Assembly: GCF_002278925.1 (NCBI RefSeq)
Contig: NZ_NCJH01000002.1
Location: 248,001 to 312,000, forward strand
DNA length: 64,000 nucleotides
From: Polaromonas sp. 39-63-25
Lineage (GTDB): Bacteria > Pseudomonadota > Gammaproteobacteria > Burkholderiales > Burkholderiaceae_C
Reading direction: 5' to 3'
Made by a program: the position numbers and the translations under genes. The notes under the pieces are model-generated. The model was not told where the DNA came from. It ran no database searches and saw only the letters and a program-made list of their open reading frames with translations. This document shows positions 24,181 through 53,968 of the stretch, piece after piece; the first letter of the stretch is position 1, and each line of letters starts with the position of its first letter.

Positions 24181-24585
24181 CCCACTCCCTCCCCTAACCC
24201 CTCCCTCGCCCCGCTGGGCGATGGAGGGGGACTTCATTTGGCCGCGTGTGCTGCGCTCGCGTGCAAAAATGACGGTCCCAGGAGATTCGACAGGACGCGC
24301 TGCGCGCGTCCTGTCTCCCCGAATTTGTATTGGCTCCCGCTCCCCCCCACCCGTCGGGCTGGGCCGAGGAGCGCAGCCGAAAGCGGATCAGGGCGAGCGA
24401 TTGTCTGAGCGAAGCGAGTTCGAGCTCGACCCCGCTTTCGGTGAGCACCGGAGGTTGCCCCGGAGCGAAGCGCAGGGGACCCAGACCATCGGGTCGCCTT
24501 TTCTTTGGTGACTTTCTTTTGGCGACGCAAAAGAAAGTTACTTGCCGCCGGGCAACCCCCCGGCTTGTGGGCAAACCGCTGCGCC
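24181..24585 (+). repeat. Structured repeat family, copy A
   Basis: This copy fills most of the gap between the convergent thioesterase and ttuD genes. Three hairpins are visible: H1, arms 24290-24300 and 24304-24314 (ACAGGACGCGC); H2, arms 24377-24386 and 24432-24441 (CCGAAAGCGG); H3, arms 24511-24520 and 24529-24538 (ACTTTCTTTT) with loop GGCGACGC. The other copies are at 48916-49310, 53392-53612 and 53677-53968. Short open frames across the copies have no ribosome sites and diverge in frame, so the family looks non-coding. Confidence 0.8.
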
Positions 24586-24678
24586 ATAAACAACGTGAGT
24601 AGTCAGCAAGCATGGATCCCGGATCAAGCCCGGGATGACAACCTCTTCTCGCCACAATCCTTATGGACATTGCGTAGC

Positions 24679-24697
24679 CAGCTACAAAATCAATAGC
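24679..24697 (-). repeat. 19-bp dispersed motif, copy 3
   Basis: This copy overlaps the 3' end of ttuD and supplies its last codons (LLIL) and TAG stop. Confidence 0.5.
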
Positions 24698-25998
24698 GCA
24701 CGGAAGTCGTTGACATTCGTATGGGTGGGCCCCGTGATCACCAGATCGCCCAGCGGTTCGAAGTAGCCATAGGCGTCGTTGCGGTCCAGGAAGCCGTTGA
24801 TCTTCATGCCCTGCGCCACCGCGCGCGTCAGGGTGTCGGGCGCCACAAAGGCACCGGCGTTGTCTTCCACACCGTCGATGCCGTCGGTGTCGGCCGCCAG
24901 CGCATAGACCCCGGCCTGGCCTTGCAGCGCGAGCGCCAGGCCCAGGCAGAACTCGCCCGCCCGCCCGCCGCGGCCTTTGGCAGCGCCCGCTTGCAGGGGT
25001 CGGACCGTCACCGTGGTTTCGCCGCCGCTCAGGATCACGCAGGGTTTGCTGAAGGGCTGGCCCCTGAGCGCCACCGCACGCGCCAGCGCCGCATGCACCT
25101 TGCCGACCTCGCGCGACTCGCCCTCCATTTCATCGCTGAGGATGTAGGCCTGCAGCCCCGCCGCACGCGCCGCAGCCGCGGCAGCCTCGAGCGACTGCTG
25201 CGGCGTGGCCATCATGTGGACCTGATGGCCGCCAAACGCCGGGTTGCCGGGCTTGGGGGTTTCCAGCGCCCCGCTTTCCAGTCGCGACAACACGTCCGCC
25301 GGCACGTCGATACCGTAACGTTTCAGGATGGCCAGTGCATCGGCGCAACTGCTGGCGTCGGGCACGGTCGGGCCGCTGGCAATGATGGACGGATCGTCGC
25401 CTGGCACATCGCTGATGGTCAGCGTGACCACACGCGCCGGCGCGCAGGCCGCGGCCAGGCGCCCGCCCTTGATGCGCGAGAGGTGTTTGCGCACGCAGTT
25501 CATCTCGACGATGTTGGCGCCGCTGTTGAGCAGCGCCTTGTTGATGCGCTGCTTGTCTTCCAGACTCAAGCCTTCTGCCGGCAGCGTGAGCAAGGCCGAG
25601 CCGCCGCCGGAGATCAGGCACAACACGAGATCGTCTTTTGTGAGACCTTGCACCATGGCCAGAATGCGCTGCGAGGCGGCCAGCCCTGCCGCGTCGGGCA
25701 CCGGGTGGGCGGCCTCGACCATCTCGATGCGCTGCGGCAGACCTTCGGGGCGCGGTGGAATGTGGTGGTAACGCGTGACGACCAGGCCCTCCAGCGGCGC
25801 ATCCGCCGGCCACAACGCTTCGACAGCCTGCGCCATCGAGCCACCGGCCTTGCCGGCGCCGATCACAAGGGTTCTGCCTTTGGGTGGCTTGGGCAGGCAG
25901 GCGGCCGTGTTGTGCAGCGGCATGGCACGCGTGACCGCGGCCTGGTAAAGATGCTCGAGGAACTGGCGCGGGCGGGTAGCGGGATCGGGTGCAGTCAT
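24682..25998 (-). CDS. ttuD: Glycerate 2-kinase / hydroxypyruvate reductase-type MOFRL protein
   Basis: TtuD-family proteins act late in tartrate breakdown, phosphorylating glycerate (older annotation: hydroxypyruvate reductase). The 438-residue protein has the N-terminal domain with VIGAGKAGGSMAQAVE and LISGGGSALL, and the C-terminal MOFRL domain with CVILSGGETTVTV and ADTDGIDGVEDNAGA. It is the last gene of the ttuC - Bug receptor - ttuD cluster, 82 bp after the receptor gene. Its final codons come from a dispersed repeat. Confidence 0.9.
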   Translation of the reverse strand: MTAPDPATRPRQFLEHLYQAAVTRAMPLHNTAACLPKPPKGRTLVIGAGKAGGSMAQAVEALWPADAPLEGLVVTRYHHIPPRPEGLPQRIEMVEAAHPVPDAAGLAASQRILAMVQGLTKDDLVLCLISGGGSALLTLPAEGLSLEDKQRINKALLNSGANIVEMNCVRKHLSRIKGGRLAAACAPARVVTLTISDVPGDDPSIIASGPTVPDASSCADALAILKRYGIDVPADVLSRLESGALETPKPGNPAFGGHQVHMMATPQQSLEAAAAAARAAGLQAYILSDEMEGESREVGKVHAALARAVALRGQPFSKPCVILSGGETTVTVRPLQAGAAKGRGGRAGEFCLGLALALQGQAGVYALAADTDGIDGVEDNAGAFVAPDTLTRAVAQGMKINGFLDRNDAYGYFEPLGDLVITGPTHTNVNDFRALLIL

Positions 25999-26080
25999 TC
26001 GATGTCTCCTGCCCCGTATTGTGCCGCCGTCACCCGCCGGTAACCCGCTGCCTGATAGCGCAGCGGGCCCGACGGTCCGC

Positions 26081-27037
26081 TTACTTCTTGCCCAGCCCCA
26101 GACGCTGCGCGCCGTCCGTGTACAAGCGGGTCTTTTCCTTCATGAACGCGTCCATCTGGTCCACCCCCACGTTGACCAGCTCGAAACCGCTTTTGGCGGC
26201 GAGCGCTTTCATCTCGGGGTCATTGTTCAAGGCGGCCCACATGTCCGAAATCTTCTTGCGGGTCTCGGGCGGCGTGCTGCGGGGCACCCCGATGCCGCGG
26301 TAGGCACCGTCCACCCAGTCCACACCGAGCTCCTTGAACGTCGGCACATCCGGCATCAGCGGATGGCGCTTGTCCATGGCCACCGCCAGCGGGCGGATGC
26401 GGGTCTTGTTGTTGATGGCAAACGCGGTGTAGGTCATTGCACCGTCGACCTGCGCGCCCATGACCGAGGTCGCCATGTCGCCCGTACCCTTGAACGGCAC
26501 ATAAATGGTCTTGACGCCAAAGGCCGCATTCATGCGCTCGTGCGCCGCATGGTTGGCCGAGTTCTGGCCCGAGCCGCCCAGGCTCAGCTTGCCGGGGTCG
26601 GCCTTGGCCGCCTTGATGAAGTCCGCGAAATTCCTGATCGGGCTCTGCTCGGGCACCACCAGGATATCGGGTGTGTAGTGGAACCAGAACACCGGCGTGA
26701 TGTCCTGCGTCTTGTACTGCACCAGGCCTTCGATCGGCTGGAACACGATGTGCGGCAGGTTCACACCCACGATGTTGAGCCCGTCGCCGGGCAGGGTGTT
26801 CATCTGCGACCACATCAGCGCGCCGCCGGCACCGGCCTTGTACTGGATGACGGTGTCGATGGCCGGGCACTTTTTCTTCAGCACCACCTGCTGGTGGCGC
26901 GCCGACAGGTCCGACTCGCCGCCGGGCGGAAAAGCCTGCCAGTACTGCAGGTTCTTGTCCGGGCAGGCTTGCGCCATGACGGCGGGTGCGGCGGCCAGGC
27001 AGGCGATGCCTATCCATTGTCTGATGTCAACTTTCAT
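26081..27037 (-). CDS. Bug-family periplasmic receptor in the tartrate operon
   Basis: This 318-residue receptor starts at the ATG 27037, preceded by AAGGAGACAGC. A signal peptide runs to about residue 22 (AAAPAVMA). The ligand-binding domain has an unusual FPPGGESDLSARHQQVVLKKKCP start in place of the more common GGxxD loop, then YKAGAGGALMWSQM and GGSGQNSANHAAHERM. Its place between tartrate dehydrogenase and glycerate kinase genes suggests tartrate binding. No TctA/TctB permease is present nearby. Confidence 0.85.
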   Translation of the reverse strand: MKVDIRQWIGIACLAAAPAVMAQACPDKNLQYWQAFPPGGESDLSARHQQVVLKKKCPAIDTVIQYKAGAGGALMWSQMNTLPGDGLNIVGVNLPHIVFQPIEGLVQYKTQDITPVFWFHYTPDILVVPEQSPIRNFADFIKAAKADPGKLSLGGSGQNSANHAAHERMNAAFGVKTIYVPFKGTGDMATSVMGAQVDGAMTYTAFAINNKTRIRPLAVAMDKRHPLMPDVPTFKELGVDWVDGAYRGIGVPRSTPPETRKKISDMWAALNNDPEMKALAAKSGFELVNVGVDQMDAFMKEKTRLYTDGAQRLGLGKK

Positions 27038-27080
27038 GCTGCTGTCTCCTTGTTTTATGTGAATGCCACGGGGAAAATTT

Positions 27081-28175
27081 TCAGGCCGCGCGCGCCTGCT
27101 GCGTGCCGCCCTGCTGGGCGAGCAACCCACACACCGCGGCGGTGACCTGCGCGGTGGTGGCGTTTCCGCCCAGGTCGCGCGTATGCAGGGCCGGGTTGGC
27201 AGTGACGGCCTCGATGGCCTGCATCAGCTGCTGCGCCGCCACGTGTTCACCGAGGTGATCGAGCAGCATGACGCAGCTCCAGAACGTGCCGACCGGATTG
27301 GCCAGGCCCATGCCCATGATGTCGAAGGCCGACCCGTGGATGGGCTCGAACATCGAGGGGTAGCGGCGCTCGGGGTCGATGTTGCCGGTGGGCGCAATGC
27401 CCAGGCTGCCGGCCAGCGCCGCCGCGAGGTCGCTCAGGATGTCGGCGTGCAGATTCGTCGCCACGATGGTGTCCAGCGAGGCCGGGCGGTTCACCATGCG
27501 CGCGGTGCAGGCGTCCACCAGTTCCTTGTCCCAGGTCACGTCCGGAAACTCCTTGCTGATCTGCAGCGCGATCTCGTCCCACATCACCATCGCGTGGCGC
27601 TGGGCGTTGGACTTGGTGACCACGGTCAGCAGCTTGCGCGGGCGCGACTGCGCGAGCTTGAAGGCGTACCGCATGATGCGTTCGACGCCGGCGCGCGTCA
27701 TCATCGACACATCGGTGGCCACCTCGATCGGATGGCCCTGATGGGCACGCCCACCGACGCCGGAATATTCGCCCTCGGAGTTCTCGCGCACGATGACCCA
27801 ATCCAGATCTTTCGCCGTACAGCGTTTGAGCGGTGCGTCGATGCCGGGCAGGATGCGCGTGGGCCGCACATTGGCGTACTGATCGAACCCCTGGCAGATC
27901 TTCAGGCGCAGGCCCCAGAGCGTGATGTGGTCGGGAATGTGCGGGTCACCCGCCGAGCCGAACAGGATGGCGTCCTGGTCGCGCAGGGCATCCAGGCCGT
28001 CGTCCGGCATCATCACGCCGTGCGCGCGGAACCAGTCGCCGCCCCAGCCCAAGGAGGTGAAAGCGAAACCGAAATTCTGTGTGGCGGCCAGGGCCTGCAG
28101 CACCTGTTGACCCGCGGGAACCACTTCCTTGCCAATGCCGTCGCCCGGAATGCAGGCAATCTTGTAAACCTTCAT
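27081..28175 (-). CDS. ttuC: Tartrate dehydrogenase/decarboxylase
   Basis: This NAD-dependent beta-hydroxyacid dehydrogenase of the isopropylmalate/isocitrate family oxidises tartrate (and often malate). The 364-residue product begins KIACIPGDGIGKEVVPAGQQV. It keeps VIVRENSEGEYSGVGG and, further on, DILSDLAAALAGSLGIAPTGNI and FEPIHGSAFDIMGMGLANP, the metal- and NAD-binding region. AAGGACATGTC precedes the ATG. It heads the operon and is divergent from a LysR gene, matching the ttuA-ttuC arrangement of Agrobacterium vitis tartrate clusters. Confidence 0.92.
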   Translation of the reverse strand: MKVYKIACIPGDGIGKEVVPAGQQVLQALAATQNFGFAFTSLGWGGDWFRAHGVMMPDDGLDALRDQDAILFGSAGDPHIPDHITLWGLRLKICQGFDQYANVRPTRILPGIDAPLKRCTAKDLDWVIVRENSEGEYSGVGGRAHQGHPIEVATDVSMMTRAGVERIMRYAFKLAQSRPRKLLTVVTKSNAQRHAMVMWDEIALQISKEFPDVTWDKELVDACTARMVNRPASLDTIVATNLHADILSDLAAALAGSLGIAPTGNIDPERRYPSMFEPIHGSAFDIMGMGLANPVGTFWSCVMLLDHLGEHVAAQQLMQAIEAVTANPALHTRDLGGNATTAQVTAAVCGLLAQQGGTQQARAA

Positions 28176-28240
28176 GACATGTCCTTGAAATCATCAACAA
28201 GCATGGACTCTAGCGCTTGCCCGATTCAACAGAACGCCTT

Positions 28241-28263
28241 AAAGTTATGGCATTGTTGACTTT
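28241..28263. promoter_or_regulatory. Candidate LysR-binding dyad between ttuC and its regulator
   Basis: AAAGT and ACTTT form a 5-bp inverted repeat separated by 13 bases, centred in the 97-bp divergent gap. The size and place suit a LysR site, but the arms are short. Confidence 0.3.
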
Positions 28264-28272
28264 GATTTAATA

Positions 28273-29208
28273 ATGAGCACACCCGCCTCCGCCCCTTCCG
28301 AGATGGCTTTTTTCAGCCTGCTGGCGCGTTGCGGCAGCTTCTCGGCCACGGCGCGCGAACTCGACGTGACCACACCGGCCATCAGCAAACGCCTGGCGCT
28401 CATGGAAGCGCGGCTGGGCGTGCAGTTGCTGAACCGGACCACGCGCCGCATCAGCCCCACGCCCGAAGGCGAGATCTACCTCAGTCATGCGCGGCGCATT
28501 CTGGCCGAGATCGCCGACATGGAGCAACTGGTATCCAGCGCGGTGGCGGCGCCCAAGGGCCTGCTGCGCGTCAACGCCACCCCGGGTTTCGGGCGCAGCC
28601 ACATCGCCCCGCTGATCGCCAGCTTCGTAAAACAGCACCCGGACATGCAGGTCCAGCTGCAGCTCACGGTCAACCCCCCGCCGGCCAGCGAGGATGCCTT
28701 TGATGTGTGCGTGCGCTTCGGCGAGCCGCCCGAGGCGCGTGTGATCGCCCGCAAGCTGGCCCCGAACCGGCGTCTGCTGTGTGCGGCCCCCGCCTACCTG
28801 GCCAGACACGGCCCCCCCAAAGTGCCGCACGACCTGACGCAGCACAACTGCATCGGCATCCGCCAGGGCGACGAGGCCTACGGCATCTGGCGCCTGACGT
28901 CGGGCAAACGCACGGAAACCGTGAAGGTGCGCGGCAACCTGAGCACCAGCGACGGTGAGATTGCCGTCAACTGGGCGCTGGCCGGCCATGGCATCGTGAT
29001 GCGCGCCGAATGGGACGTCGCGCGTTACCTGCGCAGCGGCCGGCTGCGCCAGGTGCTGGAGAACTACCAGACCCCGCTGGCCGACATTCATGCGGTCTGG
29101 CCGCAGCGCCATCAGGTGTCGGCACGTGTGCGCGCCTTTGTGGACTACCTGGCGGGACACTTCGAGAAATCGTCCACGCGGGCCGCGGGCCTGGTCACCC
29201 GCTGGTAA
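28273..29208 (+). CDS. LysR-family regulator of the tartrate operon (TtuA-like)
   Basis: This 311-residue protein has an N-terminal helix-turn-helix (FFSLLARCGSFSATARELDVTTPAISKRLALME) and a LysR effector domain (LLRVNATPGFGRSHIAPLI, FGEPPEARVIARKLAPNRRLLCAAPAYL). It lies 97 bp from ttuC in divergent orientation, as ttuA does in characterised tartrate clusters. It probably activates ttuC-ttuD in the presence of tartrate. Confidence 0.85.
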   Translation: MSTPASAPSEMAFFSLLARCGSFSATARELDVTTPAISKRLALMEARLGVQLLNRTTRRISPTPEGEIYLSHARRILAEIADMEQLVSSAVAAPKGLLRVNATPGFGRSHIAPLIASFVKQHPDMQVQLQLTVNPPPASEDAFDVCVRFGEPPEARVIARKLAPNRRLLCAAPAYLARHGPPKVPHDLTQHNCIGIRQGDEAYGIWRLTSGKRTETVKVRGNLSTSDGEIAVNWALAGHGIVMRAEWDVARYLRSGRLRQVLENYQTPLADIHAVWPQRHQVSARVRAFVDYLAGHFEKSSTRAAGLVTRW

Positions 29209-29228
29209 AAGGCGTGCTCAGGACGGTC

Positions 29229-30470
29229 TCAGGGTACAGGCGCGCCGGCTTCGAACCATTGCCGGACCAGGGCCCGTTCCGCCTCGGTGATGCCGGTGGA
29301 GTTGTTCATCGGCATGGTTTTGCTGACCACCACCTGCTGGTACACCGCCTGCGCATGCTGCCTGAGCAGCGCCGGCGAGTCGAGGCGGATGTTTTTCATC
29401 TGCACCTGCGCGCCGTGGCACAGGTAGCAGCGCTGCTCCAGCACTTTTTGCAGATTTATATAGTCATTTTGGCCTACAGCCCCCGCCACTCCTACGCCAC
29501 CAGCTATTGAATCAGTAGCAAGCCCGGCACCTGCGGGCTGGGGCGGCGGCTTCATCCAGACGATGGCGCCGAGGATCAGGACCAGCCCGACCAGCGCATA
29601 GGGCAGCGGGTTACCGTTGCGGCCCAGCTTGTAGCCATGGCGCATGACAAAAAACTGGCGGATCAGCGCGCCGGCCAGCATCATGACCATCAGCACCAGC
29701 CAGTTCTGCGGGTGGCCCCAGGTGAAGCTGTAGTGGTTGCTCAGCATCGCAAACAGCACCGGCAAGGTGAAATAGGTGTTGTGCACGCTGCGCTGTTTGC
29801 CGCGCTGGCCGTGCACCGGGTCCACCGCCTCGCCGGCCTTGATGCTGGCCACGACCTTGCGCTGCCCGGGGATGATCCAGAAAAACACGTTGGCACTCAT
29901 CGCGGTGGCGATCATGGCGCCCACCAGCAGAAACGCGGCGCGCCCCGCAAACCAGTGACAGGCCAGCCAGGACGCCACACAGACCAGCCCCAGCACCAGC
30001 GCGCCCACAATCGCATCGCCGTTTTTGCGTTTGCCGAACAGCTGGCAGATGCCGTCGTAAAGCATCCAGAACACCACAAAGAAAGAAAGTGCCACGCCGA
30101 TGGCGGCGCCGGGCGACCAGTCCATCAGCGATTTGTCGACCAGGTAGGTGCCGGCGTTCCAGAGGTAGGAGACGGTGAACAGCGCAAAACCGGTGAGCCA
30201 GGTGCTGTAACTTTCCCAGTAAAACCAGTGCAGGTGGGCGGGCAAGGTGGGCGGCTTGACTGCAAACTTGACCGGGTGATAGAAACCGCCGCCGTGCACG
30301 GCCCAGAGTTCGCCGCTGACGCCCTGTTTCTTCAAGTCTTCATCGACCGGCGGCGTCAGGCTGGAATCGAGAAAAACAAAATAAAACGAGGATCCGACCC
30401 AGGCGATCGCGGTGATGACGTGGACCCAGCGCAGCAGCAGGTTGGCCCAGTCGAGAAGGTAACTTTCCAT
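29229..30470 (-). CDS. puuD: Membrane urate oxidase (urate hydroxylase) with cytochrome c domain
   Basis: PuuD oxidises urate to 5-hydroxyisourate and feeds electrons to the respiratory chain. The 413-residue protein has about eight hydrophobic segments across residues 10-315 (LLLRWVHVITAIAWVG, HLHWFYWESYSTWLTGF) and a C-terminal cytochrome c domain with the haem motif CYLCH and a distal Met in KTMPMNN. The linker between the two parts (about residues 320-350) is Gly/Ala-rich and contains copy 4 of the 19-bp motif. It lies downstream of xdhC on the same strand, giving a xanthine-to-urate-to-hydroxyisourate grouping. Confidence 0.92.
   Translation of the reverse strand: MESYLLDWANLLLRWVHVITAIAWVGSSFYFVFLDSSLTPPVDEDLKKQGVSGELWAVHGGGFYHPVKFAVKPPTLPAHLHWFYWESYSTWLTGFALFTVSYLWNAGTYLVDKSLMDWSPGAAIGVALSFFVVFWMLYDGICQLFGKRKNGDAIVGALVLGLVCVASWLACHWFAGRAAFLLVGAMIATAMSANVFFWIIPGQRKVVASIKAGEAVDPVHGQRGKQRSVHNTYFTLPVLFAMLSNHYSFTWGHPQNWLVLMVMMLAGALIRQFFVMRHGYKLGRNGNPLPYALVGLVLILGAIVWMKPPPQPAGAGLATDSIAGGVGVAGAVGQNDYINLQKVLEQRCYLCHGAQVQMKNIRLDSPALLRQHAQAVYQQVVVSKTMPMNNSTGITEAERALVRQWFEAGAPVP
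29501..29519 (-). repeat. 19-bp dispersed motif, copy 4
   Basis: In frame in the puuD linker, encoding the ATDSIAG part between the membrane domain and the cytochrome domain. Confidence 0.5.
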
Positions 30471-30600
30471 GTCTCAACCTATGCAGCGACGCGGCGCTGC
30501 CTTGTGCAAGCTGCTCACCACTGCGGGCGCTGTAAGCAGACAAAGGCCACGAACAACAAGAAGTGCTCCGCTGCGACCAGATCGCAAAAGTGTATGCGAT

Positions 30601-31407
30601 CTATGCCCTGCCGGCATGCAACAACTGTGCCGCGACGGACACCGCAATCACCTCGGGCTCCTTGCCGGGGATGCCTGGCAGGCCGATCGGGCAGGTCACG
30701 TGCGCCAGTTCTTCCGCGCTGAAACCACGTGCCTCCAGCCGGTGCCGGAAGGTTGCCCATTTGGTCTTGCTGCCGATCAGGCCGATGTAGGGCAGGTCGC
30801 CCCGCTCGCGCAGGCGCCTGAGGCATTCGGCCACGATGTCCAGGTCTTCGGCGTGGCTGAAACTCATGATCAGCACCCGCGAGTTCGGCGCCAGGCCAGT
30901 CACCGCGCGTTGCACCGGGTCGGAATGCTCGCACACCACGTCGTCCGGCACCGCCTCCGGGAAAATGCCGTCGCGGCTGTCGATCCAGCTCAGCGCAAAC
31001 GGCAGGCGCGAGAGCACCTGAATCAGCGCAAAACCCACATGCCCGCCCCCAAAAAGCGCAACAGGCTGTAAATTTGTATCCAGCCGGCGGCGCAGGCCCG
31101 ACACGTCGTCAGGCCCGACGGGTTCAAAGCGCAAATGAACCACGCCGCCGCAGCATTGCCCCAGCGACGGACCGAGCACAAAACGTCCAAGCGCCTCACC
31201 CGGCAACCCCTGCAGACGTGCGCGCGCTCTCGCCATCGCTTCATATTCCAGATGGCCGCCGCCTATGGTGCCAACCGCCGTTCCGGCAAAAACCGCCATC
31301 CAGGTGCCGGCCTCGCGCGGCACCGAGCCTTCGGTGGCGGTCACCTCGACCAGCACCGCCGGCTCCAGCGCCAGCCGGGCCAAAAACAAATCCTTGAGCT
31401 GACTCAC
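30601..31407 (-). CDS. xdhC: Xanthine dehydrogenase accessory protein
   Basis: XdhC binds molybdenum cofactor, promotes its sulfuration and delivers it to xanthine dehydrogenase. The protein has the N-terminal domain (TATEGSVPREAGTWMAV, GTIGGGHLEYEA, GQCCGG) and a C-terminal Rossmann domain (ALFGGGHVGFALIQVL, YIGLIGSKTKWATF). The GTG at 31407 with AGAGGG eight bases upstream is preferred, giving 268 residues; an earlier GTG at 31428 is possible. The structural xdhB gene is at the left edge of the window, so the set is split. Confidence 0.9.
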   Translation of the reverse strand: MSQLKDLFLARLALEPAVLVEVTATEGSVPREAGTWMAVFAGTAVGTIGGGHLEYEAMARARARLQGLPGEALGRFVLGPSLGQCCGGVVHLRFEPVGPDDVSGLRRRLDTNLQPVALFGGGHVGFALIQVLSRLPFALSWIDSRDGIFPEAVPDDVVCEHSDPVQRAVTGLAPNSRVLIMSFSHAEDLDIVAECLRRLRERGDLPYIGLIGSKTKWATFRHRLEARGFSAEELAHVTCPIGLPGIPGKEPEVIAVSVAAQLLHAGRA

Positions 31408-31556
31408 GGTAGAAACCCTCTGATACACGGCCCCCTGTCGGGGCCCGCAGAACGCATAATTCAGCCTCGGGGCAGCCGGTTTCTGTTACATAACCTGAGC
31501 CCGGGCAGACTGCACAATAGCAGCCGCCACCGTCTGGCAACTACACAAGGATACGT

Positions 31557-32132: not shown

Positions 32133-32191
32133 TGCCTGAAATAGAGATAGAGCCCGCATGCGTTCACTGTGCAGGGTGCCCTACCTCAGGT

Positions 32192-32607: not shown

Positions 32608-32633
32608 TGGGCTTTCCGACTATCATTTGCGCC

Positions 32634-33307: not shown

Positions 33308-34258
33308 ATGACCACCTACGACACCACCCTGCCCTATCCCAGAGACCTGGTTGGCTATGGCCGCACGCCGCCGCATGCGCAGTGGCCGGGTCAGGCCCGC
33401 ATTGCCGTGCAATTCGTTCTGAACTACGAGGAAGGCGGTGAAAACGCCGTTTTGCATGGCGACGCCGGCTCCGAACAGTTTCTCTCCGAGATGGCCAACC
33501 CGCCCAGCTACCCGGAGCGCCACCTGAGCATGGAAGGCATTTACGAGTACGGATCGCGCGCCGGCGTCTGGCGTCTCCTGCGTGAATTTGAAAAGCGCCG
33601 GCTGCCGCTGACCGTGTTCGGCGTCAGCATGGCCCTGCAACGCCACCCCGAGCTGACCGCCGCCTTCGTCGAGCTGGGCCACGAAATCGCCTGCCACGGC
33701 CTGCGCTGGATCAACTACCAGGGCGTGGACGAAGTGGTCGAGCGCGAACACATGCGCCTGGGCCTGGACATCATCACGCAGATGACCGGCCAGCGGCCGC
33801 TGGGCTGGTACACCGGCCGCGACAGCCCGCGCACCCGGCGGCTGGTCGCCGACGACGGCCAGCTGGCCTACGACAGCGACTACTACGGCGACGACCTGCC
33901 GCTGTGGATGAAAGTGGCGCGCACCGACGGCACCGTGGTGCCGCGGCTCGTGGTGCCCTACACGCTGGACACCAACGACATGCGTTTTGCGCTGCCCCAG
34001 GGCTTCTCGCAGGGCGATGATTTTTTCACCTACCTGCGCGACAGCTTCGACGCGCTGTATGCCGAAGGCGACCCGAACGGCCTGAACGCGCCCAAGATGC
34101 TGAGCATCGGCATGCACTGCCGCCTGCTGGGCCGGCCCGGCCGCATCGTGGCGCTGCAGAAATTCCTCGACCATGTCCAGCAGCACGAGAATGTCTGGAT
34201 CTGCCGCCGCATCGACATCGCACGCCACTGGCAGCAAGTCCACCCCTTCAAAGAATGA
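33308..34258 (+). CDS. puuE: Allantoinase, PuuE type
   Basis: This polysaccharide-deacetylase-like allantoinase converts allantoin to allantoate without the metal site of classical allantoinases. The 316-residue protein shows YPRDLVGYGRTPPHAQWPG, FVLNYEEGGE, MEGIYEYGSRAGVWRLLREFE and WYTGRDSPRTRRL, all characteristic of PuuE. It overlaps the following gene by 4 bp (ATGA) and follows gntR closely, so the operon is gntR-puuE-OHCU decarboxylase/AllC-M20-ABC. Confidence 0.93.
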   Translation: MTTYDTTLPYPRDLVGYGRTPPHAQWPGQARIAVQFVLNYEEGGENAVLHGDAGSEQFLSEMANPPSYPERHLSMEGIYEYGSRAGVWRLLREFEKRRLPLTVFGVSMALQRHPELTAAFVELGHEIACHGLRWINYQGVDEVVEREHMRLGLDIITQMTGQRPLGWYTGRDSPRTRRLVADDGQLAYDSDYYGDDLPLWMKVARTDGTVVPRLVVPYTLDTNDMRFALPQGFSQGDDFFTYLRDSFDALYAEGDPNGLNAPKMLSIGMHCRLLGRPGRIVALQKFLDHVQQHENVWICRRIDIARHWQQVHPFKE

Positions 34259-36069
34259 CCATGTCCCTGACCCTTGAACAACTGAACACCGCCCCGGCCC
34301 CGCAAGCCGCGGCCTGGCTGGCCGGCCTCTACGAACATTCCCCGTGGATCACCGATGCCGCGCTGGCACACCGCCCTTTCCGGTCGCTGGCCCACCTCAA
34401 ACACGTGACGGCCAGCATCGTTCGCGAAGCCGGCCGCGAGGCCCAGCTGACGCTGATTCGCGCCCACCCCGAACTGGCCGGCAAGGCCATGATCAGCAAG
34501 ACACTGACCGCCGAGTCGACGAACGAACAGGGCAAGGCAGGCCTGACGGACTGCACGCCCGACGAGTTCACGCGCATCCAGGCACTCAACACCGCCTACA
34601 ACACACGGTTCGGTTTTCCCTTCATCCTCGCCGTGCGCGGCCCGCGCGGCACCGGCTTGAGCCGGCAGGAGATCATCGCCACCTTTGAACAGCGCCTGGC
34701 CAACCACCCCGACTTCGAGCTCGCCGAGGCCCTGCGCAACATCCACCGCATCGCCGAGTTGCGGCTCAACGACAAGTTCGGTGCGGAGCCGACCCTGGGC
34801 AACCAGGTCTGGGACTGGCAGGAGAAACTCGGCGTTTTCAGCGACCCGGGCTACCTGGAAAAAGGCCAGCTCACGGTGACCTACCTGACTGACGCGCACC
34901 GCGCGGCCGCCCGGCTGATTGAACAGACCATGCGGGACAGCGGCTTTGATGAAGTCAGCGTGGACGCGGTCGGCAACGTGGTGGGCCGCTACAAGGCGCG
35001 CCCTCACCCCAACCCTCTCCCAGCGGGAGAGGGAGTGAAGACACTCATGACCGGCTCGCATTACGACACCGTGCGCAACGGCGGCAAGTACGATGGCCGG
35101 CTCGGGATTTTTGTACCCGTGGCCTGCGTGGCCGAGCTGTCTCGCGCGGGCAAGCGCCTGCCCTTCGACTTTGAAGTGATTGCTTTTGCCGAAGAAGAAG
35201 GCCAGCGCTACAAGGCCACTTTTCTCGGCTCCGGCGCATTGATCGGCCAGTTCAATCCGGCCTGGCTGGACCAGACAGACGCCGACGGCATCAGCATGCG
35301 CGAGGCCATGCAACACGCCGGCCTGCCGGCCACGCTGGAGGCCATCCGCGCGCTGCAGCGCAAGCCGGCCGATTACCTGGGTTTTGTCGAGGTGCACATC
35401 GAGCAGGGACCGGTGCTCAACGAACTCGACATCCCGCTGGGCATCGTGACCTCCATCAACGGCGGTGTGCGCTACACCTGCGAGGTCACCGGCATGGCCA
35501 GCCATGCGGGCACCACCCCCATGAACCGCCGGCGCGACGCGGCCCTGGCCGTGGCGGAACTCGCGCTGTATGTGGAGCAGCGCGCGGCACGCGACGGCGA
35601 CTCGGTCGGCACCATCGGCATCTGGACGGTGCCCGGCGGCTCGACCAACGTGGTGCCCGGCCGTTGCCAGTTCACGCTGGACTTGCGCGCGCCCAACGAT
35701 GCACAGCGCGACGCGATGGTGGCCGATGTGCTGGCCGAACTGAAAACCATTTGCGAACGCCGCGGTGTCCACCACACCACCGAACAGACCATGCGCGCAG
35801 CGGCAGCGCCGAGTGCCCCGGACTGGCAACAGCGCTGGGAAAAAGCGGTGGACAGCCTGGGCGTTCCGCTTTACCGCATGCCCAGCGGCGCGGGCCACGA
35901 CGCGATGAAGCTGCACGAGGTGATGCCGCAGGCCATGCTGTTTGTGCGCGGCCAGAATTCCGGCATCAGCCACAACCCGCTGGAAAGCACGACCAGCGAC
36001 GACATCGACCTGGCCGTCCGGGCTTTCCAGCACCTGTTGAACCAATTTGCCGGACCCAGCCATGACTGA
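34255..36069 (+). CDS. Bifunctional OHCU decarboxylase / allantoate amidohydrolase
   Basis: This is one 604-residue polypeptide for two purine steps. Residues about 5-168 are OHCU decarboxylase (LIRAHPELAGKAMISK with the catalytic His, FPFILAVRG), which makes allantoin. Residues about 180-604 are an M20 allantoate amidohydrolase with the metal ligands in GSHYDTVRNGGKYDG, AEEEGQRYK and EVHIEQGPVLNELD, plus GGSTNVVPGR and SGAGHDAMKLHE. An extra peptide PHPNPLPAGEGVK at about 249-261 sits before GSHYDT and is encoded by a palindromic repeat. The next allantoate step between them (allantoinase) is made by the upstream puuE. Translation is coupled to puuE and to the M20 gene. Confidence 0.93.
   Translation: MTMSLTLEQLNTAPAPQAAAWLAGLYEHSPWITDAALAHRPFRSLAHLKHVTASIVREAGREAQLTLIRAHPELAGKAMISKTLTAESTNEQGKAGLTDCTPDEFTRIQALNTAYNTRFGFPFILAVRGPRGTGLSRQEIIATFEQRLANHPDFELAEALRNIHRIAELRLNDKFGAEPTLGNQVWDWQEKLGVFSDPGYLEKGQLTVTYLTDAHRAAARLIEQTMRDSGFDEVSVDAVGNVVGRYKARPHPNPLPAGEGVKTLMTGSHYDTVRNGGKYDGRLGIFVPVACVAELSRAGKRLPFDFEVIAFAEEEGQRYKATFLGSGALIGQFNPAWLDQTDADGISMREAMQHAGLPATLEAIRALQRKPADYLGFVEVHIEQGPVLNELDIPLGIVTSINGGVRYTCEVTGMASHAGTTPMNRRRDAALAVAELALYVEQRAARDGDSVGTIGIWTVPGGSTNVVPGRCQFTLDLRAPNDAQRDAMVADVLAELKTICERRGVHHTTEQTMRAAAAPSAPDWQQRWEKAVDSLGVPLYRMPSGAGHDAMKLHEVMPQAMLFVRGQNSGISHNPLESTTSDDIDLAVRAFQHLLNQFAGPSHD
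34998..35036. repeat. Intergenic-type palindromic repeat inserted in frame in the allantoate amidohydrolase part
   Basis: CCCTCACCCCAACCCTCTCCC is followed by AGC and GGGAGAGGG. The arms 35013-35021 and 35025-35033 form a perfect 9-bp stem with a 3-base loop. The sequence type is a common intergenic palindrome of proteobacteria. Here it keeps the reading frame, adding about 13 residues to the enzyme. Confidence 0.8.
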
Positions 36070-46191: not shown

Positions 46192-46261
46192 CCCCCATGA
46201 ACACCGGCTCCCTCGCAAAAAAACGCCCCTCCCGCGGACCCCAGCCCGGAAAGACACATCA

Positions 46262-48856: not shown

Positions 48857-48915
48857 GAACGCGGATTCGTTGCGTCACGCTGCGCCTGCTGTCTGCCTTG
48901 GACAGTAGGATGGAC

Positions 48916-49425
48916 TCCCCACTCCCACCCCTAACCCCTCGCCCCGCAACGGGGCGATGGAGGGAGCTTCATTTGGCCGCGTGTGCTGCGCCCGCGTGCA
49001 AACATGACGGTCCTGTCCTCTGACGAGGACGCGCAAAGCGCGTCCTCGCCTCCCCGAATCCGCATTCGTCCCCCTAACCCGTCGGGCTGGGCCGAGGAGC
49101 GCAGGCAAAAGCGGATCAGGGCTCGCGATTGTCTGAGCCGAAGGCGAGTTCGAGCGAGACCCCGCTTTTACCGAGCACCGCAGGTTGCCCGTAGCGAAGC
49201 GGAGGGACCCAGACCATCGGGTCGCCTTCTCTTTGCTTACTTTCTCTTGGCGAAGCAAGAGAAAGTAAGTCGCCCGCCGGGGCGAGACCCGGCTTGCTGG
49301 CAAAACCGCACCGCAAGAGGGAAAGACGGCTTCGACAAGCCCAGCCCGAACAGTGATTGAACTCAGATCTGGATTGCTGGCGCCCGCCGGGCGAGTCCCG
49401 GCTTGCAGGCACACCCCGTCACCCG
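48916..49425 (+). repeat. Structured repeat family, copy B (with a repeated tail)
   Basis: This copy occupies most of the gap between cphA and ureD. H1 arms are 49024-49034 and 49038-49048 (CGAGGACGCGC) with loop AAA. H2 arms are 49106-49114 (CAAAAGCGG) and 49162-49170. H3 arms are 49236-49248 and 49257-49269 (CTTACTTTCTCTT) with loop GGCGAAGC, 13 perfect pairs. The 3' tail (CGCCCGCCGGGGCGAG...) is partly repeated at 49381-49410. I see nothing else in 48857-49556 apart from copy 6 of the 19-bp motif and the ureD promoter area. Confidence 0.8.
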
Positions 49426-49493
49426 GAGCTACATCCGCTCAGCATCTATTTATAAGCCAAAACCGCCTCCAACCCATGCCAGCAAAGCGCAAG

Positions 49494-49512
49494 CAGCTAC
49501 AAATTCAATAGC
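49494..49512 (-). repeat. 19-bp dispersed motif, copy 6
   Basis: Lies 45 bp upstream of the ureD start, near the expected promoter region. Confidence 0.5.
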
Positions 49513-49556
49513 ACCCGACACATTGAGCCATGCCATAGCCGCGTTAAACTCGCCGC

Positions 49557-50387
49557 ATGGCCTGGAACGCAACGCTCTCTCTCGACTACACCTTGCAGGC
49601 CAGCAAGACGATTGCGCACTTCCGCCACGACGGCCCGCTGCGCATTCTGCAAAGCCTCTACCCCGAAGGCGACGCCGTGTGCCACAACGTGCTGGTGCAT
49701 CCACCGGGCGGCCTGGTGGGCGGCGACACGCTGGACATCGCGGTCACGGCGGCAGCCGGCAGCCACGGCCTGATCACCACGCCCGGCGCCACGCGCTTTT
49801 ACCGGTCAGCGGGTGAAACCGCCCTGCAGCGCACCCGCCTGCGCCTGGAAGCCGGCGCCCGCGCCGAATGGCTGCCGATGGAGGCGCTGTGTTACAGCGG
49901 CTGCCTGGCCGAAAACCACCTGACGCTGGATCTGGCACCCGGGGCTGAACTGATGGGCTGGGATGTCACCGCTCTCGGCCTGCCCAGTGCCAACCAGCCC
50001 TTTGAACAAGGCAACTTTTGCCAGCACATCGAGTTACCCGGCGTCTGGCTGGAACGTGCTCGCATCCGGGCCGACGACCTGCTGCTGATGAACAGCCCGC
50101 TGGGCCTGGCCGGCCAGCGCTGCATCGCCACCTTGTTTTTTTCCGCCGGCAGCAAGCTCGACCGCCAGCGCCGGCAACTGGCTCTGGATCTGGCGCGGCA
50201 GGTGCTGGAGGCGCACCCGCTGAACGCCACCGCAGGCGCCACCAGCCCCGATGCGCAGGTGGTGGTCGTGCGGGTGCTGGCGCCCCTGGTCGAGCCGGCC
50301 ATGGTCCTGCTCAAACAAGTCTGGAAGGTCTGGCGCCAGCACTTCTGGGAAAAAGACGCGCCCAGCCCGCGCATCTGGTCGGCCTGA
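49557..50387 (+). CDS. ureD: Urease accessory protein UreD
   Basis: UreD with UreF and UreG delivers nickel to urease. The 276-residue protein has the family landmarks QSLYPEGDAVCHNVLVHPPGGLVGGDTLDI, TTPGATRFYRS and the C-terminal VRVLAPLVEPAMVLLKQVWKVWR. The ATG at 49557 begins MAWNATLSLDYT; no strong ribosome site is seen. No urease structural gene follows: the next gene is a lipoprotein protease. In relatives ureD is usually joined to urtABCDE and ureABC, so this copy has been separated from the rest of the set or left behind. Confidence 0.92.
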   Translation: MAWNATLSLDYTLQASKTIAHFRHDGPLRILQSLYPEGDAVCHNVLVHPPGGLVGGDTLDIAVTAAAGSHGLITTPGATRFYRSAGETALQRTRLRLEAGARAEWLPMEALCYSGCLAENHLTLDLAPGAELMGWDVTALGLPSANQPFEQGNFCQHIELPGVWLERARIRADDLLLMNSPLGLAGQRCIATLFFSAGSKLDRQRRQLALDLARQVLEAHPLNATAGATSPDAQVVVVRVLAPLVEPAMVLLKQVWKVWRQHFWEKDAPSPRIWSA

Positions 50388-50514
50388 TCGTCACGACGGA
50401 TCTGCCGTCTGCGGCCTACACCCTGTTTGCGGGCCGTCCTACCGGGCGCGGGCACCAGCGGCGCAAAATCGGGGGCGGCATTGCCCCCCATCAACATTGA
50501 TCTGCGAGACGCTC

Positions 50515-51321
50515 ATGAAAACCTTTCTGACCCCTGCCCTGGTGGCCGTTACCCTGCTGTTCACCGGATGCGCCAGCACCACCGAAGGCGGTGCCGTTGG
50601 TGCGTCGCGCTCGCAGCTTCTGCTGGTGTCATCCGCGGAGCTGGACCAGATGGCGGCCCAAAGTTACGCCAAGCTCAAGGCCGAAGCCAGCGCCAAAGGC
50701 ACGCTCAACACCAATGCGGCCATGCTGGCCCGCGTGCGCGCAGTGGCCGCCCGCATAGAACCGCAGACAGCGGTGTTCCGCGCCGACGCACCGCGCTGGC
50801 AGTGGGAGGTCAACCTGATCACCAGCGACCAGCTCAATGCCTTCTGCATGCCTGGCGGAAAAATCATGTTCTACACCGGTCTGGTTTCCAGACTCAACCT
50901 CAGTGATGACGAAATTGCTGTCGTGATGGGCCACGAAATCGCCCATGCCCTGCGCGAGCACTCGCGCGAACAGGTGTCCCAGGCAGCGGCCGCACAGACC
51001 GCCATCGGCATCGGCACCCAGTTGCTGGGTCTGGGTGGAGGCACCTCACAGATCACGGAAGCCGCCTACGAGGCCCTGGTGGCTACACGTTTCAGCCGTT
51101 CGCATGAAAGCGAAGCCGACCGCATCGGCCTGGAACTGACGGCACGCGCCGGCTACAACCCCCAGGCCGGCGTGAGCCTGTGGCAGAAAATGGCCAGTGC
51201 AGGCAGCACCGGCGGCGGCGTCGATTTTCTGAGCAGCCACCCCACCGATAGCAGCCGCGTGCAGCAGATCCAGGCCTTGCTGCCAACGGTGATGCCGCTG
51301 TACCAGGCGACGCGCCGCTAA
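50515..51321 (+). CDS. M48-family lipoprotein metalloprotease
   Basis: This 268-residue zinc protease has a lipoprotein signal (lipobox LFTGC, Cys at about residue 17) and the zinc site HEIAH in MGHEIAHALREHSREQ, with the third ligand in ESEADRIGLELTARAGY. SDEVG-like outer-membrane quality control is the usual role of such YcaL/LoiP-type proteases. An open frame begins further upstream inside ureD but carries no signal peptide. It is not part of a urease function. Confidence 0.9.
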   Translation: MKTFLTPALVAVTLLFTGCASTTEGGAVGASRSQLLLVSSAELDQMAAQSYAKLKAEASAKGTLNTNAAMLARVRAVAARIEPQTAVFRADAPRWQWEVNLITSDQLNAFCMPGGKIMFYTGLVSRLNLSDDEIAVVMGHEIAHALREHSREQVSQAAAAQTAIGIGTQLLGLGGGTSQITEAAYEALVATRFSRSHESEADRIGLELTARAGYNPQAGVSLWQKMASAGSTGGGVDFLSSHPTDSSRVQQIQALLPTVMPLYQATRR

Positions 51322-51430
51322 ACTTGTCATTCCAGACCTGACGCGCAAGCCCCCACATTGCCGCTGTCAGGTCAGGCACGGCGCGCAGGCGTGCGCCTGC
51401 GGCAGCAACAAAAACAATACGGGGAAAGCC

Positions 51431-52642
51431 ATGCCCGCAGCCATGACCACGACCGAGATCTACCTGATCGCCATGGCGATCATCTTCACGGTTCCCTACC
51501 TGATCTGGCGGATCTTCAAGACCGACTACTACGCGCCGCTGGTGGTGGTGCAGATCATTGCCGGCATCCTGCTCGGTCCCGGCATCCTGGGCAAGCTCTA
51601 CCCCGACTACTACACCTTCGTGTTCAGCGCGCCTGTCGTGCAGTCGCTCAACGGCATCGCCTGGTGGGCGGTGATGGTGTTTGTCTGGATCGCCGGCATC
51701 GAACTCGACCTGAAAAAAGCCTGGGCACACCGGCGTGAGAGCACCATCACCGCCGGCCTGGCGCTGGGCACCCCGCTGTTGTTCGGCTGCGCGGCCGCCG
51801 CCGGCATGCTGATGTACGAGGGCTGGGTCGGCCCGCAGGGCATGCGCTGGCAGTTTGTCATGGGCGTGGGCATGGCCTGCGCCGTCACCGCGCTGCCCAT
51901 CCTGATCCTGCTGATGGAAAAGCTTGCCATCCTGCGCCAACCCATCGGCCAGCGCATCCTGCGTTACGCCAGCCTGGACGACATCGCGATCTGGGGCGTG
52001 CTGGCGCTGATCCTGATGGACTGGGAGCGGGTCGGCCGCCAGGGCAGCTTTCTTGCGGCCTTTGCCTTGCTCGCCTATGTCTTCCGGAAGTTGATGCTGT
52101 GGGTGCCGGAACGCGACCGCTGGTATGCCGGACTCGTCTGGCTCATCCTCTGCGCCCTGGGTGCCGACTGGGCCGGCCTGCACTTCATGGTGGGCGCCTT
52201 CCTGGCGGGCGCCATCATGGACGGCGATTGGTTCAACCAGGAACACATGGATATGTTGCGCCACCATGTGCTGCTGGTGATGATGCCGGTTTTTTTCCTG
52301 AGCACCGGCCTGCGCACCAACTGGTCGATGGGTGGCGAAGCCGTATTCATCGCTGCGGCGGTACTGCTGGTGGCTTCGGTGGCCGGCAAGCTGGTCGGCG
52401 TCCATATCGCCGGCAAGGTACTCAAGTGGGCGCCAGGCGAGAGTTCCATCATCGGCTGGCTGCTGCAGACCAAGGCGCTGATCATGATCATTTTTGCCAA
52501 CATCCTGCTGGACAAAGGCATCATCACCAACGCAACCTTCACGGCGCTGCTGCTGATGGCGATTGCCAGCACCATGTTGACGGTGCCGGTGGTTGCGCCC
52601 AGGCTTCAGCGCATGAAAGAGATTATTTTCAGGGCGAAGTGA
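51431..52642 (+). CDS. Cation:proton antiporter, CPA2 type
   Basis: This 403-residue integral membrane protein has about 12 hydrophobic segments. It opens with LIAMAIIFTVPYLIWRIF and carries an internal repeat typical of Na+/H+ and K+/H+ exchangers (VVQIIAGILLGPGILGKL, WIAGIELDL, LHFMVGAFLAGAIM). It lacks the C-terminal TrkA-N domain of KefB/KefC. GGGGAAAGCC precedes the ATG. It probably regulates ion or pH homeostasis and is convergent with urtE, 13 bp away. Confidence 0.85.
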   Translation: MPAAMTTTEIYLIAMAIIFTVPYLIWRIFKTDYYAPLVVVQIIAGILLGPGILGKLYPDYYTFVFSAPVVQSLNGIAWWAVMVFVWIAGIELDLKKAWAHRRESTITAGLALGTPLLFGCAAAAGMLMYEGWVGPQGMRWQFVMGVGMACAVTALPILILLMEKLAILRQPIGQRILRYASLDDIAIWGVLALILMDWERVGRQGSFLAAFALLAYVFRKLMLWVPERDRWYAGLVWLILCALGADWAGLHFMVGAFLAGAIMDGDWFNQEHMDMLRHHVLLVMMPVFFLSTGLRTNWSMGGEAVFIAAAVLLVASVAGKLVGVHIAGKVLKWAPGESSIIGWLLQTKALIMIIFANILLDKGIITNATFTALLLMAIASTMLTVPVVAPRLQRMKEIIFRAK

Positions 52643-52655
52643 AGACCCGCAGCCG

Positions 52656-53348
52656 CTAGATGGCGACGAGCTGCCGCACGCCATTGGCCTGCATGTCCTT
52701 GCCCTGGCCGCGCGCGATAAACTCGCCGCGCTCCATCACCAGGTAATCGTCGGCCAGTTCTTCCGCAAAATCGTAGTACTGCTCGACCAGCAGGATGGCC
52801 ATGTCGCCGCGGTCGGCCAGCATGCGGATCACGCGGCCGATGTCCTTGATGATGCTGGGCTGGATACCCTCGGTCGGCTCGTCCAGGATCAGCAGCTTGG
52901 GCTTGGCCGCCAGTGCGCGCGCAATCGCGAGCTGCTGCTGCTGCCCGCCCGAGAGGTCGCCGCCACGCCGGTTCAGCATCTGCTTCAAAACTGGAAACAG
53001 CTCGTACAGCTCGGCCGGAATCGGCGTACTCGCACTTTTGTAGGCCAAGCCCATGCGCAGGTTTTCCTCGACCGTCAGGCGCGCAAAAATCTCGCGACCT
53101 TGCGGCACAAAACCGATGCCGGCGCGCGCGCGTTCATACGGCGTGGCGTTCTGGATGGCCTTGCCGTCGAAATCGATGCTGCCGGTCTTGATAGGCACCA
53201 GACCCATCAGCGATTTGAGCAGGGTGGTCTTGCCGACGCCGTTGCGGCCGAGCAGCACGGTGACCTTGCCGAGGTGGGCTTGCAGGCTCACGTCGCGCAG
53301 GATGTGGGAGCCGCCGTAATACTGGTTGATGTTTTTGACGTTTAGCAT
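52656..53348 (-). CDS. urtE: Urea ABC transporter ATP-binding protein UrtE
   Basis: This 230-residue LivF-type ATPase has Walker A GRNGVGKTT, signature LSGGQQQQLAIARAL and Walker B LLILDEPTEGIQPSI. The TEGIQPS sequence is characteristic of UrtE. It energises urea uptake through UrtB/UrtC together with UrtD. It is separated from urtD by 666 bp of two repeat copies, unlike the tight spacing between other urt genes, so its expression may depend on read-through or a promoter in the repeats. Confidence 0.93.
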   Translation of the reverse strand: MLNVKNINQYYGGSHILRDVSLQAHLGKVTVLLGRNGVGKTTLLKSLMGLVPIKTGSIDFDGKAIQNATPYERARAGIGFVPQGREIFARLTVEENLRMGLAYKSASTPIPAELYELFPVLKQMLNRRGGDLSGGQQQQLAIARALAAKPKLLILDEPTEGIQPSIIKDIGRVIRMLADRGDMAILLVEQYYDFAEELADDYLVMERGEFIARGQGKDMQANGVRQLVAI

Positions 53349-53391
53349 TTGGTGATCTCCATCGCGCTTCTTGGAGCTTCGGAGCCATAGT

Positions 53392-53612
53392 GGTTCGCCA
53401 ACAGGCCGGGGGTAGCCCGGCGGCTACTCACTTTCTTTTGCTTCGCCAAAAGAAAGTAAGCAAAGAAAAGGCGCCCCTGCTGTCTGCGTCCCCCTTCGCT
53501 TAAGCTACGGGGACAACCTGCGGTGCTCGGTCCAGCCGGGGCCGGGCTCGAACTCGCCTTCGGCTCAGACAATCGCCCGTCCTGATCCGTCTGGCCCTGC
53601 GCTCCTCGGCGC
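53392..53612 (-). repeat. Structured repeat family, copy C (inverted, truncated)
   Basis: This copy runs in reverse orientation. H3 arms are 53430-53439 and 53448-53457 with loop GCTTCGCC, the reverse complement of the loop in copy B. The H2 region is recognisable but degenerate; H1 is missing. It faces copy D, so the pair forms a large inverted arrangement between urtE and urtD. The gap 53349-54014 otherwise shows no gene. Confidence 0.75.
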
Positions 53613-53676
53613 AGCCAGAAGGGGGGTGGGGTCAGGAGCGGGTTCGGAATCGGAATCGGGTACGCAGTCGGGCTCC

Positions 53677-53968
53677 GGCGAGGACGCGCAAAGCGCGTCC
53701 TCGCCTCCCCGCACCCGTATTCGCTCCCCAACCCGTCGGGCCGGGCCGAGGAGCACAGCCGAAAGCGGATCAGGGCGAGCGATTGTCTGAGCGTAGCGAG
53801 TTCGAGCTCGACCCCGCTTTCGGCGAGCACCGCAGGTTGCCCGCAGCGAAGCGAAGGGACCCGGACCATCGGGTCGCCTTTTCTTTTGCTTACTTTTCTT
53901 TTGGCGACGCAAAAGAAAAGTGAGTTGCCGCCGGGCAACCCCCGGCTTGCTGGCGAACCTCCAATGCA
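53677..53968 (+). repeat. Structured repeat family, copy D
   Basis: H1 arms are 53677-53689 and 53693-53705 (GGCGAGGACGCGC) with loop AAA, 13 perfect pairs. H2 has CCGAAAGCGG and CCGCTTTCGG as in copy A. H3 arms are 53892-53902 and 53911-53921 (ACTTTTCTTTT) with loop GGCGACGC. Relative to copy A the H3 stem has one more T on the left and one more A on the right, so pairing is preserved. Confidence 0.8.

Follow-up and report, generated by a model that had tools for sequence, protein, structure and literature searches.

Four copies of a structured repeat lie between genes of the window

The window analyzed here, a 64-kb stretch of the genome of Polaromonas sp. 39-63-25 (G000:C18:248001-312000, where G000 is the organism's own genome and other G and L numbers denote the genomes and loci compared with it), carries four copies, A to D, of an intergenic repeat built of successive hairpins. 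A sequence-only reading of the window had described these copies, and direct reading, followed by repeat search and alignment, found all four where that reading had placed them. Copy A is flanked by convergent genes, one thioesterase-like (23646-24065, +) and the other DUF4147/MOFRL glycerate-kinase-like (24682-25998, -), copy B separates a cyanophycin-synthetase gene from a UreD gene, and copies C and D form a single head-to-head pair between urtE and urtD. The features of the four copies are as follows.

24171..24585 (+): copy A, an unpaired unit that has the 5' module (read directly, repeat search, alignment)
24171..24278 (+): 5' module of copy A, a C-rich hairpin plus CTTCATTTGGCCGCG (repeat search)
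24290..24314 (+): H1 hairpin of copy A (read directly, fold)
24363..24455 (+): long hairpin P1-P2 of copy A, which includes the previously described H2 (alignment consensus, covariation)
24399..24421 (+): near-invariant hairpin tip of copy A, GATTGTCTGAGC-GAA-GCGAGTTC (comparison with relatives)
24458..24478 (+): P3 of copy A, a short hairpin with a GAA loop (alignment consensus)
24499..24506 (+): candidate third-strand tract of copy A, TTTTCTTT, mirror of the H3 arm (mirror test)
24513..24537 (+): H3 of copy A (pyrimidine arm 24513-24520, loop 24521-24528, purine arm from 24529)
24543..24564 (+): H4 region of copy A, TTGCCGCCGGGCAA hairpin (alignment consensus)
48903..49310 (+): copy B, likewise an unpaired unit that has the 5' module
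49227..49264 (+): predicted triplex tract of copy B (third strand 49227-49234, TTCTCTTT; pyrimidine arm 49241-49248, TTTCTCTT; purine arm 49257-49264)
53392..53640 (-): copy C, left half of the head-to-head pair, C-type stem (read directly, repeat search)
53432..53469 (-): predicted triplex tract of copy C (third strand 53462-53469, pyrimidine arm 53448-53455, purine arm 53432-53439)
53640..53968 (+): copy D, the right-hand member of the pair, with a D-type stem
53677..53705 (+): H1 hairpin at the center of the C/D pair (read directly, fold)
53879..53919 (+): predicted triplex tract of copy D (third strand 53879-53887, pyrimidine arm 53894-53902, purine arm 53911-53919)

Three hairpins, H1, H2 and H3, had been proposed as common to all four copies. 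This does not hold for C, which has only H2-like and H3 parts and is devoid of an H1 of its own; the hairpin at 53677-53705 lies between C and D, the two halves of one pair. The paired changes reported between copies were all recovered: H1 reads ACAGGACGCGC in A but CGAGGACGCGC in B, where the two outer pairs are altered and still matched; H2 is CGAAAGCGG in both A and D and becomes CAAAAGCGG in B, where the 3' arm has changed to match; and in H3, B has a T-to-C change accompanied by an A-to-G, and D gains one T plus one A. The H3 loop GGCGAMGC is constant across A to D as claimed, but GGCGAGAC is found at other sites of this genome and among relatives. In the H4 region of copy A, an alternative GCCGGG..CCCGGC pairing, mutually exclusive with the TTGCCGCCGGGCAA hairpin, was noted by eye. 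The stem letters of C are unlike those of D. The pairing of C with D, the near-invariant tip, the mirror tract before H3 and the spread of the repeat across phyla had all been overlooked.

The fold is conserved by paired changes

To build an alignment, 13 of 125 representative units from the listed loci were removed, leaving 112 units that are nearly all from Burkholderiales and include at least one false unit (L093). Their consensus comprises 71 pairs, with an outer helix P0 enclosing the long hairpin P1-P2 and the short hairpin P3, followed by H3 and H4. Covariation was scored by a G-test against a tree-simulated null (a custom script run on 30 simulated alignments rather than R-scape). Seventeen of the 71 predicted pairs passed Bonferroni correction, compared to 0-4 in slid versions of the structure, and when all column pairs were tested, eight reached E<0.05, seven of which fall in predicted helices. 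In a set of 48 units drawn from the 112 (L093 among them), a 19-pair structure chosen after viewing the alignment yielded a covariation score of 0.442 versus 0.073-0.144 when slid, and 177 double-change cells versus 29-60; the program's own consensus for these units has merely 10 pairs, eight of them with double changes. Some of the double changes may be due to exchange of whole hairpins. The stem letters of some subfamilies, such as L043, L152 and L161, are strongly divergent and yet still paired. RNA folding of copies A (z -6.35, none of 100 shuffles as good) and D (z -5.82, none of 200) exceeded that of shuffled sequences. Covariation above the tree-simulated background, the slid and shuffled controls and the third-strand tract described below thus bear out the suggestion of selection on folding, and the fold is almost certainly conserved.

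Mapping stem events on the tree gave 320 double changes from one Watson-Crick pair to another, 118 changes from Watson-Crick to G-U and 64 from Watson-Crick to A-C (p 8e-5). In P2, 23 events led to G-U and 6 to A-C. G-U being in excess over A-C, one strand is therefore the folded one.

The tract before H3 mirrors the H3 arm

A pyrimidine tract lies 5' of H3, and in 129 of 155 informative units it is the exact mirror of the H3 pyrimidine arm, the other 26 being neither mirror nor direct repeats; because units share ancestry, 155 is not a count of independent events. The 155 were obtained by parsing 198 of 297 unit stretches, 187 of which were unique, and excluding 32 symmetric cases, such as copy D, whose tract is uninformative as to mirror versus direct. 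Shuffling the tracts returned a mean of 37 mirrors and a maximum of 54. This test, in which tracts are trimmed to a T-bounded core, was defined after the result of a first, cruder scoring had been seen; in that scoring (n=94), which counted flanking C and G letters, the mirror won in 43 units, tied in 33 and lost to the direct repeat in 18, with 18.4 mirror wins expected under shuffling, and perfect matches numbered 2 for the mirror and 12 for the direct repeat. Seven purine-arm types are mirrored, and the sole significant column pair outside the helices (153-166) links the tract to the H3 arm. Among 30 units from distant lineages, 6 were mirrors, 2 fitted both models, none was direct, 9 were symmetric and 13 fitted neither model.

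Since a parallel pyrimidine third strand predicts a mirror, the observed tract matches an intrastrand Y.R-Y triplex; correction of palindromes by template switching predicts an inverted repeat and hence leaves the tract unexplained. Judged from these letters, the potential for a triplex is strongly supported, and the end of the unit has the apparent form of a three-stranded helix. No triplex is claimed for the 5' module, in which a first mirror test on 128 loose matches left 103 unparsed and found 21 mirrors, 1 direct repeat and 3 ties, and a second (n=48) left 4 unparsed, with 28 cases fitting neither model, 14 direct, 1 mirror and 1 symmetric.

A near-invariant tip crowns changing stems

The tip of the long hairpin, TGTYTGAGC-GNA-GCGAGTT, is almost fixed while the stem beneath it changes. 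Its mini-stem varies by paired changes and insertions, as GC-GNA-GC, GCC-GAA-GGC, GGC-GAA-GCC or GCGC-NNN-GCGC. The heptamer d(GCGNAGC) forms an extra-stable DNA turn, and GCGNAGC tips are present also in GTAG-headed REPs. By eye, the same tip tops attC-like hairpins in L208, L209, L211 and L212. In a considerable share of the viral contigs compared (L318, L321, L329, L343, L355, L362 and similar ones), the 19-base tip stands at a boundary between a constant left and a variable right flank, in a manner resembling an attachment site.

Units spread across two phyla and occupy variable sites

With copy A as the query, at least 50 matching stretches were found in its own genome (40 of 70 candidates scored), several of them cut by contig ends; copy C matched 47 stretches in that genome, and copy D found matches in 29 of 61 genomes, its own and 60 relatives. 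These numbers are far beyond chance. Further related units are present across the Burkholderiales, in Pseudomonadota outside that order and in Bacteroidota, with the proviso that the names of metagenome-assembled genomes (MAGs), for instance Brevundimonas (L084) and Hyphomicrobiaceae (L169), may reflect misbinned contigs. The exact tip pattern was present in 32 of 299 Pseudomonadota genomes, the Polaromonas genome included, with no exact match in the other 267 and five single hits for the reversed pattern, and in 9 of 118 Bacteroidota genomes; some exact matches are, by eye, single hits without a paired stem. Unit-rich genomes held 25 (G473), 32 (G531) and 33 (G457) tips. Five Bacteroides genomes held 2-11 tips each, with H3 of the same form and nine head-to-head pairs among those listed.

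Comparison of corresponding sites revealed both filled and empty states. The site of copy B is filled in G017 and empty in G004, G032 and G034, and its spacing, in the absence of an alignment, suggests that it is empty in G036 and G024 as well. At the C/D site, G025, G013 and G028 lack the pair, whereas G004, G017, G034 and G036 have it; the site is interrupted by contig ends in G032 and G031 and partially matched in G024. Such differences between species support movement of the repeat. A unit 99% like D (G004:C77), considered as a recent insertion that might give exact ends, was set aside, as its site appears to be filled in G000 too, where its two flanks lie at contig ends.

Pairs and single units differ in gene context

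Close pairs of units were head-to-head in 67 of 72 cases; among head-to-head pairs typed on both sides, 37 of 42 combined a C-type with a D-type half, and another 25 were untypable. A repeat search showed that pairs have long inverted halves. One pair of the opposite, tail-to-tail arrangement lies in L075. The anchor of the 5' module accompanied 48 of 218 single matches, a count that derives from a loose pattern and includes false units, versus none of 141 paired units. Using our own crude gene finder, we located single units between convergent genes in 15 of 21 cases in G000 (7 edge cases dropped) and in 18 of 33 at other loci (28 edge cases and one in-frame case dropped; Fisher p 2e-8 versus background). 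Pairs, in contrast, showed no preference for convergent genes (p 0.4). Tandem single units were weakly co-directional (4/5 in G000, 8/13 at other loci).

Inverted units at wider spacing were examined as autonomous elements and rejected: L220 contains two genes, one of them a RAYT gene, L221 a gene that by eye looks thiolase-like and L081 an open frame.

Relation to known families

A known family that might explain the structure was sought. Rfam release 15 returned no match at the gathering threshold for the window and seven related loci, the hits to the C/D pair being sub-threshold and mostly to miRNA models (E >=0.17), and no description of the family was found in the literature searched, which barely covered subscription journals.

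The nearest known kind is that of the BoxC/PIT triplex repeats (also TMECO) of E. coli and other proteobacteria. These are likewise intergenic, carry an intrastrand triplex motif, vary in copy number between close genomes and form inverted pairs of two distinct types; in E. coli, each of the five inverted BoxC pairs is made of a type A and a type B (PMC4666352). Three consecutive triplex-capable tracts, the mark of BoxC/PIT, are found here in pyrimidine form. PIT, however, is a G/C-rich purine motif of ~37 nt, whereas the present motif is A/T-rich, of the pyrimidine kind with a predicted parallel third strand, and is joined to a covarying hairpin domain of ~150 nt with a near-invariant tip. 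The PIT pattern CCCTCNCCCN3-6GGGNGAGGGN3GGGNGAGGG has no exact match in copies A to D, and adjoins units in several Burkholderiales loci. Twelve of 14 exact BoxC/PIT matches fell within 400 nt of a tip versus 3.9 expected, and 37 of 47 matches with up to three substitutions lay near one versus 8.7 expected, under random placement in the same loci that ignores the avoidance of genes by both motifs. The window's sole exact match, where none is expected by chance, is at 35001-35033 (-) inside a long open frame (34255-36069, +), and by eye reads as an in-frame ..RPHPNPLPAGEG.. insert.

REP, REPIN and BIME elements resemble this repeat in being multi-copy hairpins, in their head-to-head pairs and, for some REPs, in GCGNAGC tips. 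They differ in having a RAYT partner and a GT(A/G)G head directly before a palindrome of 20-35 nt, by which REPs are defined (PMC2817692); our unit is ~250 nt long, and no such head was seen by eye at its ends. Integron attC sites share folding as single-strand hairpins, and some attC-like sequences the tip (by eye); no arrangement resembling a cassette array was seen at the window copies, where R boxes and an integrase were not sought. Finally, Gammaproteobacteria MAGs (L078, L112, L114, L142, L149, L296-L298) contain short elements akin to miniature inverted-repeat transposable elements (MITEs) that end in GTAACTATTCAGC and have the tip on a hairpin, 49 tips being present in the genome of L114. 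These differ in their defined terminal inverted repeats, unrelated stems and lack of a visible H3 or triplex, and GTAACTATTCAGC, allowing up to two mismatches, is absent at A to D, with one match elsewhere in the window (3132), a number compatible with chance.

Neighboring genes and other repeats

The genes beside C and D were also considered as livF and livG, names rejected since both score as urtE/urtD. In Variovorax (L148), a unit pair lies between two Liv-like ABC ATPase genes (5343-6113, 6643-7452); its operon differs from that around the window pair (52656-54896, urtE/urtD), and its position is similar. Other repeats adjoin units at 24610-24640 (..GGATCCCGGATCAAGYCCGGGATGAC..) and 49326-49352 (GGCTTCGACAAGCYCAGCCCGAAC), as they do beside many other units. 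Elsewhere in the window, a 53-nt repeat with a near-constant end, CTTGCGCTCGGTGATGTC, occurs five times at spacings of 357-384 nt (14640-16195), perhaps within a repeated-domain protein, and a perfect 58-nt tandem duplication spans 61648-61763.

Interpretation and alternatives

The explanation that accounts best for these observations, held tentatively and at somewhat less than even confidence, is that the copies are a non-autonomous repeat recognized by its structure and acting as folded single-stranded DNA, like BoxC/PIT and REPIN. One strand would become single during replication gaps, transfer or transposition and fold into the long hairpin with its near-constant GC-GNA-GC tip and flanking GA steps; the pyrimidine tract upstream of the H3 hairpin would then join it as a third strand, with H4 following. 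A putative protein of the host or of a mobile element would recognize the tip, the triplex end or both, which would leave stem letters free to vary while pairing is kept. The unit would spread as a head-to-head pair of two unlike halves (C+D) or singly, often with the 5' module, single units persisting mainly between convergent genes. This reading draws on the covariation, the one-strand bias, the mirror tract, the C+D pair geometry with its BoxC parallel, the filled and empty sites, the nearness of BoxC/PIT motifs to tips and the GCGNAGC tips of REPs. The conserved fold, strand bias, mirror tract, pair geometry and site states are direct observations, while the use of DNA rather than RNA, the triplex itself and the mobilizing step are inferred. 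DNA is tentatively favored over RNA on the basis of the GNA tip, the likeness to attC and REP hairpins, and BoxC.

A number of findings weigh against this explanation. The triplex is not universal, as 13 of the 30 distant units fit neither model, and units of the G531, G457 and G473 types are, by eye, long hairpins without H3. H3 events (18 versus 16) show no strand bias; DNA folding of D beat shuffles on both strands (z -4.77, -4.30) and chose neither; and the strand asymmetry does not decide between RNA and DNA, a one-strand bias being equally expected of RNA. Pyrimidine triplexes form in RNA too (PMC4666352). No target-site duplication was seen by eye, the empty sites compared being diverged. 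As to the enzyme, no Y1 transposase domain (PF01797) was detected in either G531 (32 tips) or G207 (7 tips), and of the 30 PF01797 loci retrieved, out of 50 listed matches, not one had units on both sides. Reverse transcriptase (PF00078), rejected as the mover, was detected in 8 of 20 genomes; the 12 without a hit include the unit-rich G032, G017, G031, G330, G207, G531, G473, G427 and G549. G531 and G207 thus bear units although neither domain was found in them.

The strongest alternative, which we regard as unlikely, is an RNA element, structured and 3' untranslated or operon-internal, that is co-transcribed with its neighbors and whose fold and U.A-U triplex would protect or end transcripts. 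It would suit the preference of single units for convergent genes, the one-strand G-U bias and the capacity of RNA for pyrimidine triplexes. It is at odds, however, with the weak co-direction of tandem single units, with pairs that hold the unit in both orientations, with a tip that is a GNA triloop known as a stable DNA turn rather than a common RNA tetraloop, and with the absence of an Rfam match at threshold. BoxC/PIT, moreover, had neither promoter nor terminator activity in earlier work (PMC4666352).

We consider improbable a domesticated chromosomal site that would bind a nucleoid, replication or termination factor and be maintained by selection on the host. The cross-phylum tip and the convergent-gene bias of single units would agree with such a role, but presence varies between close species and most Pseudomonadota genomes lack the exact tip. 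Less probable still is a MITE moved by the DDE transposase of an insertion sequence, the fold being a by-product of long inverted ends. Pairs do have long inverted halves, and the tip does occur inside the short elements ending in GTAACTATTCAGC; yet single units lack inverted ends, GTAACTATTCAGC is absent at A to D, target duplication was not seen, albeit at diverged sites, and inverted ends explain neither the mirror tract nor the constancy of a tip whose stems change. That the repeat is a REP/REPIN element dependent on a RAYT transposase is very improbable, for despite the REPIN-like pairs, the GCGNAGC tips and the RAYT gene between two units ~1.3 kb apart in L220, the GT(A/G)G head was not seen, the unit is far longer than a REP, and RAYT as a general partner was rejected given the missing PF01797 in G531 and G207, the lack of flanked loci, the L220 RAYT's own GTAG REPs, and the fact that the sole PF01797 gene of G000 had no units in the 1500 nt retrieved to either side of it. 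In L220 (1400-2100), the RAYT gene is flanked by GTAGGTCGGATTAGCGAAGCGTAATCCGAC-like (GTAG) repeats whose tips are also GCGNAGC.

Going beyond the copies themselves, it is conceivable, though doubtful, that the structure-recognized repeat represents a class of folding-DNA elements in Pseudomonadota and Bacteroidota, with a near-invariant tip, free stems and, in many lineages, a covarying intrastrand triplex end. Its two-ended units would be moved by a novel enzyme, and the tip would be a general signal for recognition or the start of folding, found also on attC-like and MITE-like elements.

Support for the BoxC/PIT triplex has included motif counts, spectroscopy, footprinting and rearrangement rates. 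Where a third-strand tract and a hairpin arm change in concert, intrastrand triplex formation is open to an evolutionary test. A tip that is nearly fixed on turning-over stems in two phyla points to one recognizing factor, which could be fished for directly. Such a tip also provides a specific handle for tracing what moves a large class of intergenic repeats.

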